Below, piece by piece: positions 2,303 through 28,495 of a DNA stretch of 35,891 nucleotides; position 1 is the stretch's first letter, and the number at the start of each line of letters is the position of its first letter. The notes beneath the pieces are model-generated. The model was not told the DNA's origin. It made no database searches and saw only the letters and a list, made by a program, of their open reading frames with translations. Position numbers and translations under genes: made by a program. The DNA comes from a virus, in IMG/VR virus record IMGVR_UViG_3300020471_000114, positions 1 to 35,891 of that record. One strand, written 5' to 3'.

Positions 2303-2503
2303 TTATTCTTCTTCTAAGCCTAACAGTTTCCTTAAATTATATATACCTATCTCAACAGGTACTAATTTAACGTTACCACTGTCATTCATTAGTATAAAGT
2401 GTGGCTTATTTCCTAAACCACTGTACTCTATACTCTGTAATTTCCAGTTAGACTTGACAATATTGTCTATCATATGTATATTATATGCCCTATATTTCCT
2501 CAT
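2303..2503 (-). CDS. Unknown small protein (about 66 aa)
   Basis: The frame is open from ATG 2503 (MRKYRAYNIH), with a TTG two codons earlier and another ATG at 2473 (MIDNIVKSNW); none has an ideal ribosome binding site, so the start is uncertain. The body reads as a compact alpha/beta protein (KPHFILMNDSGNVKLVPVEI) and ends KLLGLEEE. No family is recognised. The ATG at 2503 overlaps the end of the phosphoesterase gene, consistent with translational coupling. Confidence 0.55.
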   Translation of the reverse strand: MRKYRAYNIHMIDNIVKSNWKLQSIEYSGLGNKPHFILMNDSGNVKLVPVEIGIYNLRKLLGLEEE

Positions 2504-3560
2504 TTGCAAGCTTTACTAGGTATTCTGCAGTTACTCCTGCACCTGGTTTAGCAAACAATAACCATTGACATGGCCTTCCCATACTAGCTAACTGTTCTAA
2601 TGCATATGTATTGTATGATTCAGTAGAACCATTAACCCATAACCTTACGTCATTGACGTACATAGTTGTAGGTGTATGGAAATGACCAGCAATAGCGTAG
2701 TCAAAGTCGGGCATGAGGCCTCGACTAGCTAATGCTTTCCATCCTAACAGTTTCTTACCAAAGCCATACCAGGGAAAACCTGAATGACCTCGTATGTTAT
2801 CACCATGCCACACAAAAAACTTACATCCTTCACCTACATCAGCTATATCAAACCAGTGATTATCACCTGTACTATCAGGTATAGTCCATGTCATACGCTT
2901 TTCATCTTTGTATATCATAGACATAATCTTTCCAAGCATTCTATCTGCATTAGAATCTGGATGATAATCCTTACGTGCTCTACCACCAAGGCTACCATGA
3001 TTACCTATAACCCAATGAACATCTACTTCTTTGAAGTTTGCTAGCAATGTATCAAAAAATTTTGTTAATATTCTGGGACCGTCAATAGTTACCTGGTTAT
3101 ATAAGCTAGCGTCTATGAGATGTGTTTGACCTGGAAATATAAGCTCACCTTCTACTATATCACCAGCTGCTAGTACTACACATTTATTAACTGGATGTGC
3201 TGAACGTTGTACATTAGTAAGCTCTACTATTTTATTTGCATACTCAACTACACGTTCTTCTGCTACTTGTGTATTGTAATCTGGTGTTACTTTTGCTAAC
3301 TGTACATCACTTAATATAGCTACTGCTATTTCTTCGTTTTTAGTTTTTTTATGTAGTTTAGGTTTAGGTATTTTAGGTTTATCCCACGTCCGTAGGTTTG
3401 TAGAAACTGCCTGATATACAGCGTCAATCATATCAGCTTTTTTATTCTTAGCTTTTTCTAATTGTTTGAGTAAGCGTAAATTATCTTTTTTTAGTTCTTG
3501 AATTTTATGAGATTCAGCTTCAGCTATAAGCTTGTTAATTTCTTTATCTGATTTAGCCAT
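2490..3560 (-). CDS. Calcineurin-like metallophosphoesterase with coiled coil
   Basis: A 356-aa protein. Residues 1-45 are a Lys/Glu-rich coiled coil, 60-76 a basic Pro/Lys linker, and 78-300 a metallophosphoesterase fold with the motifs in order: SDVQ (84-87), GDIVEG (133-138), GNHG (186-189), WHGD (251-254) and GHFH (292-295). These residues bind two metals in the family that includes Mre11/SbcD nucleases and phosphatases. The first motif is DxQ where the family normally has DxH, which may change metal binding or substrate. Placed near the Rad52-like gene, a nuclease role in recombination is plausible, but a nucleotide or protein phosphatase cannot be excluded. The start overlaps the preceding gene by eight bases. 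Confidence 0.8.
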   Translation of the reverse strand: MAKSDKEINKLIAEAESHKIQELKKDNLRLLKQLEKAKNKKADMIDAVYQAVSTNLRTWDKPKIPKPKLHKKTKNEEIAVAILSDVQLAKVTPDYNTQVAEERVVEYANKIVELTNVQRSAHPVNKCVVLAAGDIVEGELIFPGQTHLIDASLYNQVTIDGPRILTKFFDTLLANFKEVDVHWVIGNHGSLGGRARKDYHPDSNADRMLGKIMSMIYKDEKRMTWTIPDSTGDNHWFDIADVGEGCKFFVWHGDNIRGHSGFPWYGFGKKLLGWKALASRGLMPDFDYAIAGHFHTPTTMYVNDVRLWVNGSTESYNTYALEQLASMGRPCQWLLFAKPGAGVTAEYLVKLANEEI

Positions 3561-3801
3561 GCGTTGCTATGTTTTCGAAATGATGTCGTACTGCTGACTC
3601 ACTTATCTTTATATTAAAATGTTCTTTAAGTAACCTAGATACAACGTAAGGTTTAATTGGTGTACCATTCTTTACACGCTCTTCGCAGCCATCCCAAAAG
3701 GGTTGTGCTTCAGGTGTAATCCTGGTTAAGATAGCACTACGTTTACCATTTTCTGCTTCGTATAGTAATTCATCTATATCCATTGTTGTCATTATACTCA
3801 T
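3553..3801 (-). CDS. Small HTH-like protein (82 aa)
   Basis: An 82-aa protein whose C-terminal half (about 50-80: IKPYVVSRLLKEHF, then ISESAVRHHF) looks like a helix-turn-helix with the second helix SESAVRHHFE. It may bind DNA or act as a small adaptor; no family name is certain. The start ATG 3801 lacks a strong ribosome binding site; internal ATGs at codons 4 and 7 are alternatives. Its end overlaps the phosphoesterase start by eight bases. It is the first gene after the 647-base noncoding stretch. Confidence 0.6.
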   Translation of the reverse strand: MSIMTTMDIDELLYEAENGKRSAILTRITPEAQPFWDGCEERVKNGTPIKPYVVSRLLKEHFNIKISESAVRHHFENIATHG

Positions 3802-4448
3802 GGTTATTTATATTACAAGGACCTAATCGTACAGTCTACGCCAACGTCTATACTTGCCTGTTGGAGGGCGTGCACATCTAGTGCATCTGAAGGTACCCCG
3901 TTGCTATGACGTACAACTCAGAGTTTATCTTAGTGTGCCAGGTCTGATAATTATTTGCATTAGCTTTTTACTACATTTTAAAACGCTATCAGTACCAACG
4001 TTTGCTCATCTCGCAGACTGTATTTATAGGTTGTTAATTGATATTACATGTTTATCCTTTCAAATGTTCTATCACTCGTGGCAACACTTGGCCTCACTGC
4101 GTCACCTACTCAATCAAATGTAAACCCCCTCCAGTGATACTTTCGGGGGGAGTGTCTCCTTGTTTCGTTGCTGCGTGTCACCACTCGCTACAGCTATCGG
4201 AACCCTCTGGCATTACGTATCCTCGCTGCCTCGCTAGGAGGTGCTAGCTTCGTTGCTTCGTCACTCCATGCCAACGGGTCCCTCAAGAATTGGTATGTGT
4301 AGCAGTGTTCACTATGGGTTGATTGTTGACATTCATGAGGTTATCACCTGTTGCAGGTTCTCCCTGCACTCTATTCTGCTACTAAATATAGCTTTGATTA
4401 GCGGAAAGGAACACTAACACACTTGCGTGTTTACTATATTCCATACCA
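3802..4448 (-). ncRNA. Candidate large structured noncoding RNA
   Basis: This 647-base gap inside a tightly packed minus-strand operon has no convincing gene, and its middle (about 4080-4290) is visibly richer in G and C than the rest. On the minus-strand RNA many pairings can be drawn: a 13-bp stem with a 2x2 internal loop (4268-4282 with 4199-4213) that encloses a GCTAG/CTAGC hairpin (4244-4248, 4233-4237); a C5/G5 hairpin (4145-4149, 4125-4129) whose loop (4133-4139) pairs over 7 bp with 4070-4076, a pseudoknot; a 6-bp stem (3987-3992, 3944-3949); and a CAACG/CGTTG stem (3899-3903, 3842-3846) enclosing a TGCAC/GTGCA hairpin (3881-3885, 3871-3875). Known large phage-associated RNAs such as GOLLD and ROOL are of this size class; membership is untested. 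Boundaries are the gene borders, not mapped ends. Confidence 0.5.
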
Positions 4449-5861
4449 CTATACTACATTCAGTTTTAATGCATGTTCTTTTACCTCGTCAATATCTTTG
4501 AGGTTAATAATTCTATTGGCTGTACATATATCGTAACAATCTTTAAGTAAATTGTAACCATTGCTATTTCTGCCTATACCAAATACTTTCATATCTGATA
4601 CCCATATTCTACGTGGTGGCATCTCTGCTAACCAGCGTAGTGCAGGACCGTCAATAACATTACCGCCACCACTATGGTCATCAAGATATGTATCATCAAC
4701 ACGCATACCATTTTTAGCAATAATACGTAGATTACCTCCATTGTGATAGCCATTGTACATAGCTATGTTTACAGCAGGTAACAACATCATAATATCTAGT
4801 ATGTCTTTGCCATAAAAATTCATACTACCTGATGCATCTATTAGTATTGTGCCACCTTTAACACGTTGTTTTTGTTTGAATATCTTTTTATCTATACAAT
4901 ATCTGTTGATATATTTAGGATTGTAACCATAGTCCATAGGTCTATATGCACGTCCATGATTAATTCGTGAACGTAAGTTAACAGACATAGGAGGTTCATG
5001 TATTTCCATTTTACCCCATTCACCTATACCACTACCAGAACGATATAACATATCTTCTTGTAATGATGTACGCATACGCTTTTCTAATTCATCTGCATTA
5101 CCTGCAGAAGCTATTTGTTCATCACCCTCACCTTCACCTTCATGTTCTGATTGTCCAGGTTGTGATTTTGGTGCGTGTATTTCATCTGGTTTAGGTTTAT
5201 CAATAAACTCATTGATAACATGAGATAATTTTTCTGCAAGTTTTTGCACTTTACGATAACTAGGCCATTGATTGTACCTATGATTAATAAGTTTAGCTGC
5301 ATAACTATTAGCTACTTGTATTGCAAATTTTAGTTCTGATTGTCTAATGATATGTAATGTTTCATCATCAGATGCTTTATCAAATGCATTTACAACATCT
5401 CTACTTATTTGTGCTTCTAGTACATAATGGTCATTGACGTATGTTTTACTAGCAAGTATATACAATATAATATCAGCAACACTAGCTGACTTTATCATAC
5501 GTAATATCATTGCTTCTACTTGTATCATACATAATACAGGTTCATCACATGGCAATTTTGCACGTGCTGCAAGTAAATAATTAATACGTACTTCTTCTAG
5601 TGCATGTATACAGTCAGCCCTAGTACCACGCATTAGTTTACCCATAGTTTTAGGGGACCATTTAGCGTGACCTAGTTCGTGTCTACGTATCATACGACCA
5701 TGGTTAACACCACATTCTTCACATTCCCTATTCATAGGTACATACATTTGTCTGTTTAAGTTGTCTGTCCTAGGTTGTGGGTCGTGCTCAGTATTTTCGT
5801 AAACATTCCAGTCTTCACCAGTAACTATTTGGGGATATGGATATGCTTTACTGTTATACAT
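4449..5861 (-). CDS. Zincin-VWA protein, partner of MoxR ATPase (CobT-like)
   Basis: A 470-aa protein with two recognisable parts. The N-terminal part has HELGH (61-65), an HExxH zinc-protease motif, followed by EEVR (89-92), where Glu could be the third zinc ligand. After an acidic Gly/Glu linker (235-250) comes a VWA domain with a MIDAS motif DASGS (342-346), a Gly-rich segment (398-405) and a later acidic site VSDMK (421-425). A Cys pair CEEC (47-50) precedes the HExxH motif. Paired with the MoxR AAA+ gene directly upstream (eight-base overlap), it resembles the MoxR-VWA and CobS-CobT partnerships, in which the ATPase loads or remodels a metal-dependent partner. The target here is unknown. 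Confidence 0.75.
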   Translation of the reverse strand: MYNSKAYPYPQIVTGEDWNVYENTEHDPQPRTDNLNRQMYVPMNRECEECGVNHGRMIRRHELGHAKWSPKTMGKLMRGTRADCIHALEEVRINYLLAARAKLPCDEPVLCMIQVEAMILRMIKSASVADIILYILASKTYVNDHYVLEAQISRDVVNAFDKASDDETLHIIRQSELKFAIQVANSYAAKLINHRYNQWPSYRKVQKLAEKLSHVINEFIDKPKPDEIHAPKSQPGQSEHEGEGEGDEQIASAGNADELEKRMRTSLQEDMLYRSGSGIGEWGKMEIHEPPMSVNLRSRINHGRAYRPMDYGYNPKYINRYCIDKKIFKQKQRVKGGTILIDASGSMNFYGKDILDIMMLLPAVNIAMYNGYHNGGNLRIIAKNGMRVDDTYLDDHSGGGNVIDGPALRWLAEMPPRRIWVSDMKVFGIGRNSNGYNLLKDCYDICTANRIINLKDIDEVKEHALKLNVV

Positions 5862-6570
5862 TTGCTTTAGATAATGTTATGGCATCTATTAATTCTTCTG
5901 CTTTATCACCGAATACTAGCTTAGCTGCAGTTTCTGGAGTAAATCCTTGTTCTTGTAAGCCGAAAAATTCTGACCATGCACGTACAGATATACGTTCTTC
6001 AGGGTCATCAACCATAGTTGTATCATGTATTACACCATGCCATTCTTCTGGGAATTGTTCCATTGCCATTGGATGTATACTATCGACATAGATTTTTACA
6101 GGAAATCTATCTTTAAGTGCAAGAGGTAAGCTCTCTGGTGGACTGTTAGTAGTAGCAACTACTTCGAACCCTTCAGAAGGTCTTACTGTTTCCTTACTAT
6201 CATTATTGAGTGTCAACATTGCTATGTCTTGGTCATCCAATATAGCATGCAAGAATGTCATAGCGTCTGGTGATGCGTGGTCTATCTCGTTGATAACCAA
6301 CCTACCGCCATTACGCCATGCTTGTATTGCAATACCGTCATGCCATTCGAACTGACCTGTACTTGAAGGCTTATAAAAACCTTCTAAGTTTGCAGATGCA
6401 GTATCTTCTGTCATTGTAACCTGATACACATTAGGTGTACCGTCTGCATTAAGTGGTGCAGTTTGTTTGACTGCACTGTATGTTTTACCTGTACCTGGTG
6501 GGCCGTATAATAATACACGTCTAGTCTTACCTAGTACAGCTTGTATTTGTTTCCAACAATCGTTTTCCAT
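5854..6570 (-). CDS. MoxR/CobS-type AAA+ ATPase
   Basis: A 238-aa AAA+ protein: Walker A GPPGTGKT (23-30), Walker B LVINEID (91-97), sensor 1 ATTN (139-142) and an arginine-finger candidate in ALKDRF (151-156). The order and the short C-terminal lid fit the MoxR/AAA_5 class, chaperone-like ATPases that act with VWA-domain partners. The gene starts at ATG 6570 overlapping the stop of the 152-aa gene (TAATG) and ends inside the start of the VWA gene, so the three are one translational unit. A role in activating or disassembling a protein complex during infection is inference. Confidence 0.85.
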   Translation of the reverse strand: MENDCWKQIQAVLGKTRRVLLYGPPGTGKTYSAVKQTAPLNADGTPNVYQVTMTEDTASANLEGFYKPSSTGQFEWHDGIAIQAWRNGGRLVINEIDHASPDAMTFLHAILDDQDIAMLTLNNDSKETVRPSEGFEVVATTNSPPESLPLALKDRFPVKIYVDSIHPMAMEQFPEEWHGVIHDTTMVDDPEERISVRAWSEFFGLQEQGFTPETAAKLVFGDKAEELIDAITLSKANV

Positions 6571-7028: not shown

Positions 7029-7073
7029 ATCTTCCTTTCTGTAAAGCAAAGGCAGTACAGAAAGGAAAGATAT
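7026..7073 (-). promoter_or_regulatory. Hairpin sequestering a ribosome binding site
   Basis: Positions 7027-7043 and 7056-7073 form an inverted repeat of 17 pairs with one bulged base and a 12-base loop. In the minus-strand RNA the 3' arm contains the Shine-Dalgarno sequence AAAGGAAG and touches the AUG at 7028; the 5' arm (CUUUCCUUUCU) is its exact anti-sequence. The folded form should block initiation unless melted by a ribosome, protein or other RNA. The alternative, a perfect transcription terminator, is unlikely because no U-tract follows. Confidence 0.6.
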
Positions 7074-9564: not shown

Positions 9565-9777
9565 TTAGAAGGGCAAATCCTCATAGTCAGATTGGTCAAC
9601 ATCAAGCTTCATATCAATATTCAAATAACTTAGGTCATTTGTATATCGTTTTTCGCCTTCGTTTTGACGATAGTCTATGATTGCACTTCCAACAGTCCTT
9701 TTGACTTGTTCAAAGTCCATAGGTTCTAGTATGTCCTTGAGTGTTTCAAGTGCACACTTTACTTTATCTATGTCCAT
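9565..9777 (-). CDS. Small acidic protein with SSB-like C-terminal tip (70 aa)
   Basis: A 70-aa acidic protein. Residues 1-35 are helical (DIDKVKCALETLKDILEP), and the last 15 are acidic and end YEDLPF, close to the DDDIPF tip by which bacterial SSB recruits replication and repair proteins. No DNA-binding fold is visible, so it may be an SSB mimic or adaptor rather than an SSB. The ribosome binding site GAAAGGATAAACAA precedes ATG 9777. Family not recognised. Confidence 0.6.
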   Translation of the reverse strand: MDIDKVKCALETLKDILEPMDFEQVKRTVGSAIIDYRQNEGEKRYTNDLSYLNIDMKLDVDQSDYEDLPF

Positions 9778-27358: not shown

Positions 27359-28495
27359 ATGGCAGGTATATCCCTGACTGGTGACACACTTTACTCCCAA
27401 AAGATTAATAACTTTGCGGGAGAGCTATTTCGTGTAGGTGGTCAAAGAACTCCTTTCTTATCTGCAACAGGTGGCTTGAACGGAGGTAAGGTTTTACAAT
27501 CTACTTTCTGGCAAATCCAAGCTGCTGACGGACACACTGTAACTTCTAAACCAACTGCTGGTAAAGAAGGTGACGCACCAACTGAATATCTTGGAAGAGA
27601 TAGAGTTGCGTACACAGGTGTAACACAGATATTCCATAAAGGTGTCAAGATGACTTACACAGCTATGGCAACATATCAAAATCAGAATCCATTTTCTGTT
27701 AATGCAGCTGGCGGTCCAATTAATACCGTTAACTCATCTGATGGAGATGGAACAACTACTGCAGGAACTTTATTAGCTTCCTTTGGTAGCAACCCGATAG
27801 TTGATGAATTTGCAGAGCAAATGTCTTTAGCTCTTGAAAAAGTAGCTAGAGAAGTAGAATACTTTGCTTTCAAAGGTACTTTTGCAGATGGAGCTCACGC
27901 TACACCTGGACAAGGTACTAGAGAAATGCGTGGTATCTCTGAATACACATCATTGAATGCAAATGCAAACAACTCTGTTGCTCCTGACTTTATAGGTGGA
28001 AACATCTATTGGAACGGTACAACAGGTAACGGTGCTACAGGTTCAAACCAAGTTTTATCTTGGGATGCTATCGCTAACTCTCTTAAGAGATTGTATGATG
28101 CACATGCTCCAATGGTACAGCCTGTTCTTTGCGTAACTCCAAAACAACTTTTGGACCTTAACAAAGAACTATTAGCTGGTTCTGTTGGAATCACAGGTGC
28201 TATCTTACCTAGAGATAGAAACCTTGCAGGTATTGATATTGACGTAATTGTTACTCCATTCGGACAGATTGGAATGATGGTTATTGACCCTAATATCATG
28301 CCTGATAACAATGCATTTATTTTAGACTTTGCTTTTATACAGCCAGTCTTTACAAATATCCCTGGATACGGAACAGTATTCGTAAGAGATATTGACCAAA
28401 ATGCAGATGCAAAGGTTGCTAAAGGTATCTATATGGAAATGGGATACGACTTCGGTCCTCCTTCATACCATTTGAAGATAGCTAAAGTAGCTTAA
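27359..28495 (+). CDS. Major capsid protein (HK97-fold, SU10-like)
   Basis: A 378-aa protein between scaffold and an intrinsic terminator. Its sequence character, starting MAGISLTGDTLYSQKINNFA and including RGISEYTSL-type loops, a VLCVTPKQLLDLNKELLAG helix (about 258-276) and a C-terminal beta segment (IYMEMGYDFGPPSYHLKIA), fits the HK97-fold capsid proteins of the SU10-like group. Its codons end in C far more often than those of neighbouring genes (ATC, AAC, TTC, GAC), a mark of selection for high expression. GGAGG precedes ATG 27359. Confidence 0.85.
   Translation: MAGISLTGDTLYSQKINNFAGELFRVGGQRTPFLSATGGLNGGKVLQSTFWQIQAADGHTVTSKPTAGKEGDAPTEYLGRDRVAYTGVTQIFHKGVKMTYTAMATYQNQNPFSVNAAGGPINTVNSSDGDGTTTAGTLLASFGSNPIVDEFAEQMSLALEKVAREVEYFAFKGTFADGAHATPGQGTREMRGISEYTSLNANANNSVAPDFIGGNIYWNGTTGNGATGSNQVLSWDAIANSLKRLYDAHAPMVQPVLCVTPKQLLDLNKELLAGSVGITGAILPRDRNLAGIDIDVIVTPFGQIGMMVIDPNIMPDNNAFILDFAFIQPVFTNIPGYGTVFVRDIDQNADAKVAKGIYMEMGYDFGPPSYHLKIAKVA

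Follow-up and report, generated by a model that had tools for sequence, protein, structure and literature searches.

The window, a virus record of 35,891 bases analysed over its whole length, carries two gene sets of opposite direction (Table 1). In the early operon, an AAA ATPase and a VWA protein are encoded as a pair (4449-6570) in a MoxR/CobS-CobT-like arrangement. Between the VWA gene and a small gene annotated at 3553-3801, both on the minus strand, lies a gap of 647 bases (3802-4448), whose GC content rises to ~0.55 in the middle compared with ~0.35 in the adjacent genes. The gene found at the position of the small gene in phage DSL-LC01 is, by comparison, annotated as terminase small subunit. 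The annotated start of the small gene at 3801 is very probably wrong, and the gene would instead start at 3783 behind a leaderless promoter, an arrangement that a pattern search recovered in 32 of 47 distinct relatives; the untranslated interval therefore spans ~3784-4448. A search for intrinsic terminators between 3000 and 5000 found none on the minus strand, every match lying on the plus strand. The leaderless promoters, the best match of the window's exonuclease (Streptomyces phage Dagobah, 43%) and the occurrence of the RNA core described below, in a version of another lineage, in genomes of the Actinomarina family together hint at an actinobacterial host.

Table 1. Genes, RNA modules and helices at the locus, in positions of the window.
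Feature	Position	Strand	Remarks
Early gene set	1-11.9 kb	-	judged by content: exonuclease, annealing protein, ParB-like, AAA and VWA genes
Second gene set	11.9-35.9 kb	+	terminase onward
AAA ATPase gene	5854-6570		partner of the VWA gene
VWA-domain gene	4449-5861	-	5' of the RNA; putatively CobT-like
Module A	4291-4448	-	158-nt RNA; starts right after the VWA stop codon
Helix P1	4442-4448/4291-4297	-	outer helix, closes all of module A
Domain 1	4385-4440	-	
Helix P2	4434-4440/4385-4391	-	Domain 1
Hairpin P3	4427-4430/4419-4422	-	Domain 1, inside P2
Hairpin P4	4412-4417/4398-4403	-	Domain 1, inside P2
P4 loop UUCCUUUC	4404-4411	-	near-invariant in the VWA-gene family; predicted unpaired probability at least 0.99
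Domain 2 (widespread core)	4297-4384	-	covariance model R2, E 1.1e-14
Helix P5	4376-4382/4299-4305	-	core
Junction strand AAUAGAGU	4368-4375	-	core
Helix P6	4363-4367/4353-4357	-	core; GAGAA loop 4358-4362
RACA	4349-4352	-	core
Helix P7	4346-4348/4317-4319	-	core
GUGAACA	4306-4312	-	core
Module B	4187-4289	-	long rod-shaped hairpin with regular internal loops
Lineage-specific segment	4062-4186	-	conserved solely in the 7 nearest relatives
Module C	3816-4061	-	second structured RNA
Module C closing helix	4015-4022/3830-3837 and 4027-4030/3822-3825	-	
Module C start	GAAAGGA 4055-4061, AUG 4047-4049, UAA 4044-4046	-	early-type ribosome-binding site with start-stop mini-frame
Promoter TTGTAA-N16-TATAAT	3791-3818	-	leaderless; 7 nt 5' of the probable ATG 3781-3783
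Small gene and SbcD/Mre11-like exonuclease (phrog_284)	2490-3783	-	3' of the gap

The transcribed strand of the whole gap folds better than its shuffles (z -2.97), and in this, as in the raised GC content, the present results agree with the preliminary description of the locus. The same description had regarded the gap as one large noncoding RNA, which the relatives do not support. Among 80 viral loci gathered with the VWA protein, the gap following the VWA gene measures 182-786 nt; module A alone is retained by practically every relative with a contig extending beyond this gene, while modules B and C come and go and the remainder depends on the lineage. Comparison of the relatives thus indicates that the minus strand of the gap encodes an array of modules and not a single 647-nt RNA. 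Two structural details proposed earlier are likewise not borne out: the halves of a 7-bp pseudoknot (4133-4139 with 4070-4076), which fall in the lineage-specific segment, are complementary in the window, but the loop half is absent from all seven nearest relatives, and a CAACG/CGTTG closing pair is lost through substitution in three of the relatives (L002, L004 and L007). The conserved structure with the best support is the upstream end of the gap, 4291-4448, which had not been singled out before.

This upstream end, module A (covariance model R1, E 2.1e-35 in the window), is made of two three-way junctions, in which P1 encloses first P2 with the hairpins P3 and P4, and then P5 with the hairpin P6. 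In lineages with 71-76% identity in the DNA of the VWA gene, module A is 85-96% identical, a value that falls to 71-75% in the most distant lineages tested. When 58 members (55 distinct) are aligned on this six-helix structure, compensatory changes occur at 35 of 36 pairs, with 531 compensatory cells among the 55 distinct homologues; the fitting of the alignment to the model biases these values towards the model, though the compensations are also visible in the plain alignment. Paired cells amount to 94.7%, against 23.7-43% with slid partners, none of 500 shuffles matched the covariation values, and all 17 pairs of Domain 1 covary. The seventh helix, P7 (GGU with ACC, 5' of the conserved U(U/G)GAACA strand), was identified later via other lineages. 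An inner hairpin, AGGU/ACCU, which appears sporadically in some members, was dropped, the GGU/ACC-type pairing of P7 fitting other lineages better.

That the minus strand is the RNA follows from its better folding than the complement (z -3.8 versus -1.8 for module A alone) and from the excess of G-U over A-C among its paired cells (72 GU/UG versus 32 AC/CA). Protein coding on either strand was rejected for lack of a conserved open frame, as only 0-4 of the 55 homologues are free of stops in any one frame. Of the two observations that the preliminary description had set against an RNA, namely a lack of covariation and a reading frame conserved in relatives, neither was made for module A, and the interval almost certainly represents a conserved structured RNA.

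The window gave no match to Rfam 15 either at the gathering thresholds or at E up to 10, GOLLD, ROOL, tmRNA, introns, C4 and ribozymes included, and six core loci gave nothing at E up to 1. ARAGORN found no tRNA or tmRNA gene in the window, a record that may be a fragment. The massive covariation, the absence of an Rfam match and the lack of a conserved frame together support a structured noncoding RNA of a new class, which, within the scope of Rfam and the open-access literature, is likely to be undescribed. Thus, of the two possibilities offered previously, membership of GOLLD or ROOL and a new class, it is the second that stands. GOLLD and ROOL are structured RNAs of phages and prophages, found in metagenomes and of unknown function (PMC12286853), and a large structured phage RNA region from aquatic metagenomes would be in keeping with them. 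However, their architecture is different, their size far greater and their location often close to tRNA islands, whereas the core here has ~80 nt, is accompanied by no tRNA and lies in replication/recombination operons; at the sensitivity used, membership of GOLLD, ROOL, tmRNA or an intron family is refuted for practical purposes. Group I and II introns have no covariance-model match and the gap sits between intact genes, and the constant tie to one gene function expected of a riboswitch is not seen, the neighbouring genes differing widely.

The part of module A with the widest distribution is Domain 2. Its consensus runs from P5 through AAUAGAGU, P6 with a GAGAR loop, RACA, P7 of any length and a few nucleotides to UUGAACA and the second strand of P5; the junction strands (AAUAGAGU, the GAGAR loop, RACA and U(U/G)GAACA) are nearly invariant and the stems covary freely. 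A pattern search for P5-P6 matched at least 120 viral stretches, and in the covariance model built on the core by itself (R2, 84 positions) all 12 pairs show compensatory changes across 26 diverse sequences. R2 finds the core alone in ~20 phage contexts outside the VWA family at E ~1e-5 or better, mostly 1e-8 to 1e-16, values that are not independent since some of the matched sequences built the model, so that the evidence lies in the covariation. The contexts belong to unrelated groups, mostly aquatic phages, and the neighbouring genes encode exonuclease phrog_284, exonuclease VIII, SbcC-like protein, DNA polymerase, RuvC, SSB/DnaB, terminase, ParB/methyltransferase or antirestriction protein. 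A small, strictly conserved core in so many unrelated phage contexts, absent from Rfam, points to a function that phages often need, and its consensus enables annotation by others.

In 85k bacterial species genomes there were 87 pattern matches, only four of which passed the covariance model (L217, L219, L232 and L252); the core occurs in 2 of 42 genomes of the family of the Actinomarina MAG and in 1 of 289 of the phylum of the Opitutae MAG. Given this near absence from bacterial genomes, the core belongs essentially to phages. Among cultured phages, BLASTN gave no match to the gap and only chance-level fragments of module A, and R2 found nothing in the examined regions of Dagobah, DSL-LC01, three Roseobacter phages, ctOK67 and AmM-1, which were picked for homologues of neighbouring genes. 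Two natural variants were observed: in a 347-kb viral contig (L175, 2315-2652) the core is duplicated in tandem together with its upstream hairpin, and in L315 (3714-3772) a very short core with P7 almost absent forms a natural minimal version.

The architecture of the core recalls that of small self-cleaving ribozymes such as the hammerhead, which are likewise compact three-way junctions with conserved junction letters and variable stems, scattered in phages. The core could be such a ribozyme, or a fixed RNase-processing site, cutting phage transcripts between genes, with the extra domains as add-ons, and its GNRA-like GAGAR loop, the free variation of its stems and ~20 unpaired letters that hardly vary would suit this. 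So would its position: it has no constant gene neighbour, usually occurs once per contig, with two tandem copies in L083/L112/L176/L185, L175 and L111, and lies between stop and start codons, often beginning just past the upstream stop and in some cases reaching as far as the following start. However, the conserved letters differ from those of such ribozymes, the core has no Rfam match to any known ribozyme, and the conserved P4 loop of the VWA-gene family would have no role in cleavage, which makes this explanation unlikely.

Less likely again is that the core acts in cis as a leader, either a protein operator or a ligand-binding element, controlling translation of the next gene through a P5 that covers the start region. 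Such an arrangement is suggested by L232 and L331, in which the start codon of a RuvC-like gene directly follows the 3' strand of P5, by an AUG within P5 in L315, and by neighbours that are often replication or recombination genes; but nearly every lineage has a different gene downstream, and the next start in the window, which has a promoter of its own, lies ~500 nt further on. The neighbours (exonucleases, DNA polymerase, SSB/DnaB, RuvC and SbcC-like genes) and the usual single copy would also be expected if the RNA served phage DNA replication as a primer or origin RNA, or bound a replication or recombination protein. This we consider improbable, as the GC skew turns at ~11.5 kb, coinciding with the change of gene direction and not at the gap, and the RNA is oriented as the genes are, having the sense of the upstream gene in the lineages where such a gene could be read.

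The other two modules are less constant than module A and differ by lineage. Folding of 18 lineages predicted a rod of 80-150 nt like module B in every one (z -1.6 to -10, mostly strongly stable), and its sequence is not conserved among them. The closing helix of module C keeps 12 bp in eight aligned sequences with four compensatory pairs, which may represent a single evolutionary event. The ribosome-binding site of module C is nearly identical to that of the early gene at 9565-9777 and is followed by an immediate start and stop, in relatives AUG-UAA/UGA/UAG, UUG-UAA or AUG-CCA-UAA, a constancy that is overstated because the members were partly found by this very pattern. The start-stop frame is a possible decoy for ribosomes or RNA. 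In the gaps 3' of the VWA gene in four relatives (L020, L022, L025 and L027), an extra hairpin with the conserved arms GTAGCACAT...GTGTGTTAC forms another RNA-like module, doubled in tandem in L027.

Within Domain 1, the stem of P4 covaries freely while its loop stays fixed, which argues that the letters of the loop matter. They are the exact complement of the early-gene Shine-Dalgarno sequence GAAAGGA(A), and resemble the anti-Shine-Dalgarno end of 16S rRNA. GAAAGGA is the commonest Shine-Dalgarno word of the early genes of the window, with 13 copies on the early sense strand (1.2 expected) against zero on the late one (2.8 expected). Twelve minus-strand copies in the window resemble ribosome-binding sites, whereas no plus-strand copy does; apart from one stray at 27457 they lie in the early region, and these 11 include that of module C. 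In 51 related loci, GAAAGGA...ATG was counted 317 times in sense and 3 times in antisense orientation. The phage thus shows two Shine-Dalgarno spellings, the early genes (minus strand) favouring (A)GAAAGGA and the late genes (plus strand) leaning to the GGAGG type. Loops of the same kind, ACUCCUUUC, are carried by P7 in two other lineages (L097/L317/L320 and L168/L316), where the genes of L316 use AGAAAGGAG sites, and the P7 of a third lineage (L219/L313) carries UCACCUCCU.

Counted upstream of annotated starts, GAAAGGA precedes 5 of 16 early and 0 of 21 late genes (p 0.01); early and late genes do not differ in their mean energy of pairing with the loop (p 0.45), and two permuted loops with a closer likeness to the 16S end discriminate slightly better than the real one. 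This weak separation is partly due to the crude annotation of first starts. A test for co-change of loop and Shine-Dalgarno letters gave no clear signal. The complementarity may also reflect a common template instead of targeting, since the loop and the early Shine-Dalgarno sites both match the 16S rRNA 3' end, and pairing of this kind is not the function of the core itself, most other core lineages being without such a loop.

Based on the fixed P4 loop, the early/late bias of GAAAGGA and the equal loops in other lineages, we tentatively propose that module A may be a trans-acting antisense RNA on early ribosome-binding sites. First, module A would be part of the early-operon transcript, or form the 3' end of the VWA mRNA, and the junction core and the rod hairpin could keep it stable. 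Upon accumulation, its loop UUCCUUUC would pair in trans with the GAAAGGA(A) sites of early messages and damp early translation, while most late genes, with their GGAGG-type sites, would be spared, so that the outcome would be a translational switch from early to late. Module C, offering the same ribosome-binding site, could act as the decoy for module A or for ribosomes, and the core would be the shared scaffold, on whose P7 other lineages place other hairpins. The broader view, in which the core is a new and widespread class of functional phage RNA, be it a ribozyme or a regulatory scaffold, that in this phage bears an anti-Shine-Dalgarno loop switching off the early Shine-Dalgarno 'dialect' and adjoins a start-stop decoy, is possible but more doubtful.

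An antisense RNA on ribosome-binding sites would have known counterparts. The C-rich-loop (UCCC) small RNAs of Gram-positive bacteria pair with Shine-Dalgarno sequences through a pyrimidine hairpin loop, as the complementary P4 loop could do here; however, they are host-encoded and of unrelated folds, whereas module A is phage-encoded, with a junction core common across phages. The C4 RNA, itself an Rfam family, is processed from an operon transcript and pairs with the ribosome-binding region of its target. In phages P1 and P7, this antisense RNA has a role in ant repression (PMC8198154). Like module A it is an operon-encoded phage RNA, which represses a gene of its own operon, and the short stretch in which it is complementary to a ribosome-binding site there has a parallel in the complementarity of UUCCUUUC to GAAAGGA. 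However, C4 concerns one operon of a temperate phage, while the RNA here has a different fold, its site is common to many early genes, and the window has no match to the C4 family model. The claim of novelty concerns the RNA class, and the anti-Shine-Dalgarno mechanism, if it holds, resembles the way in which antisense RNAs such as C4 work. If this reading is true, the phage would separate early from late translation through the spelling of its Shine-Dalgarno sequences and a matching RNA, a way of timing lytic growth that to our knowledge is undescribed.

Apart from module A, a second UUCCUUUC is present on the early sense strand at 7060-7067, just 5' of a GAAAGGAA site (7039), with which it could form a hairpin in cis.
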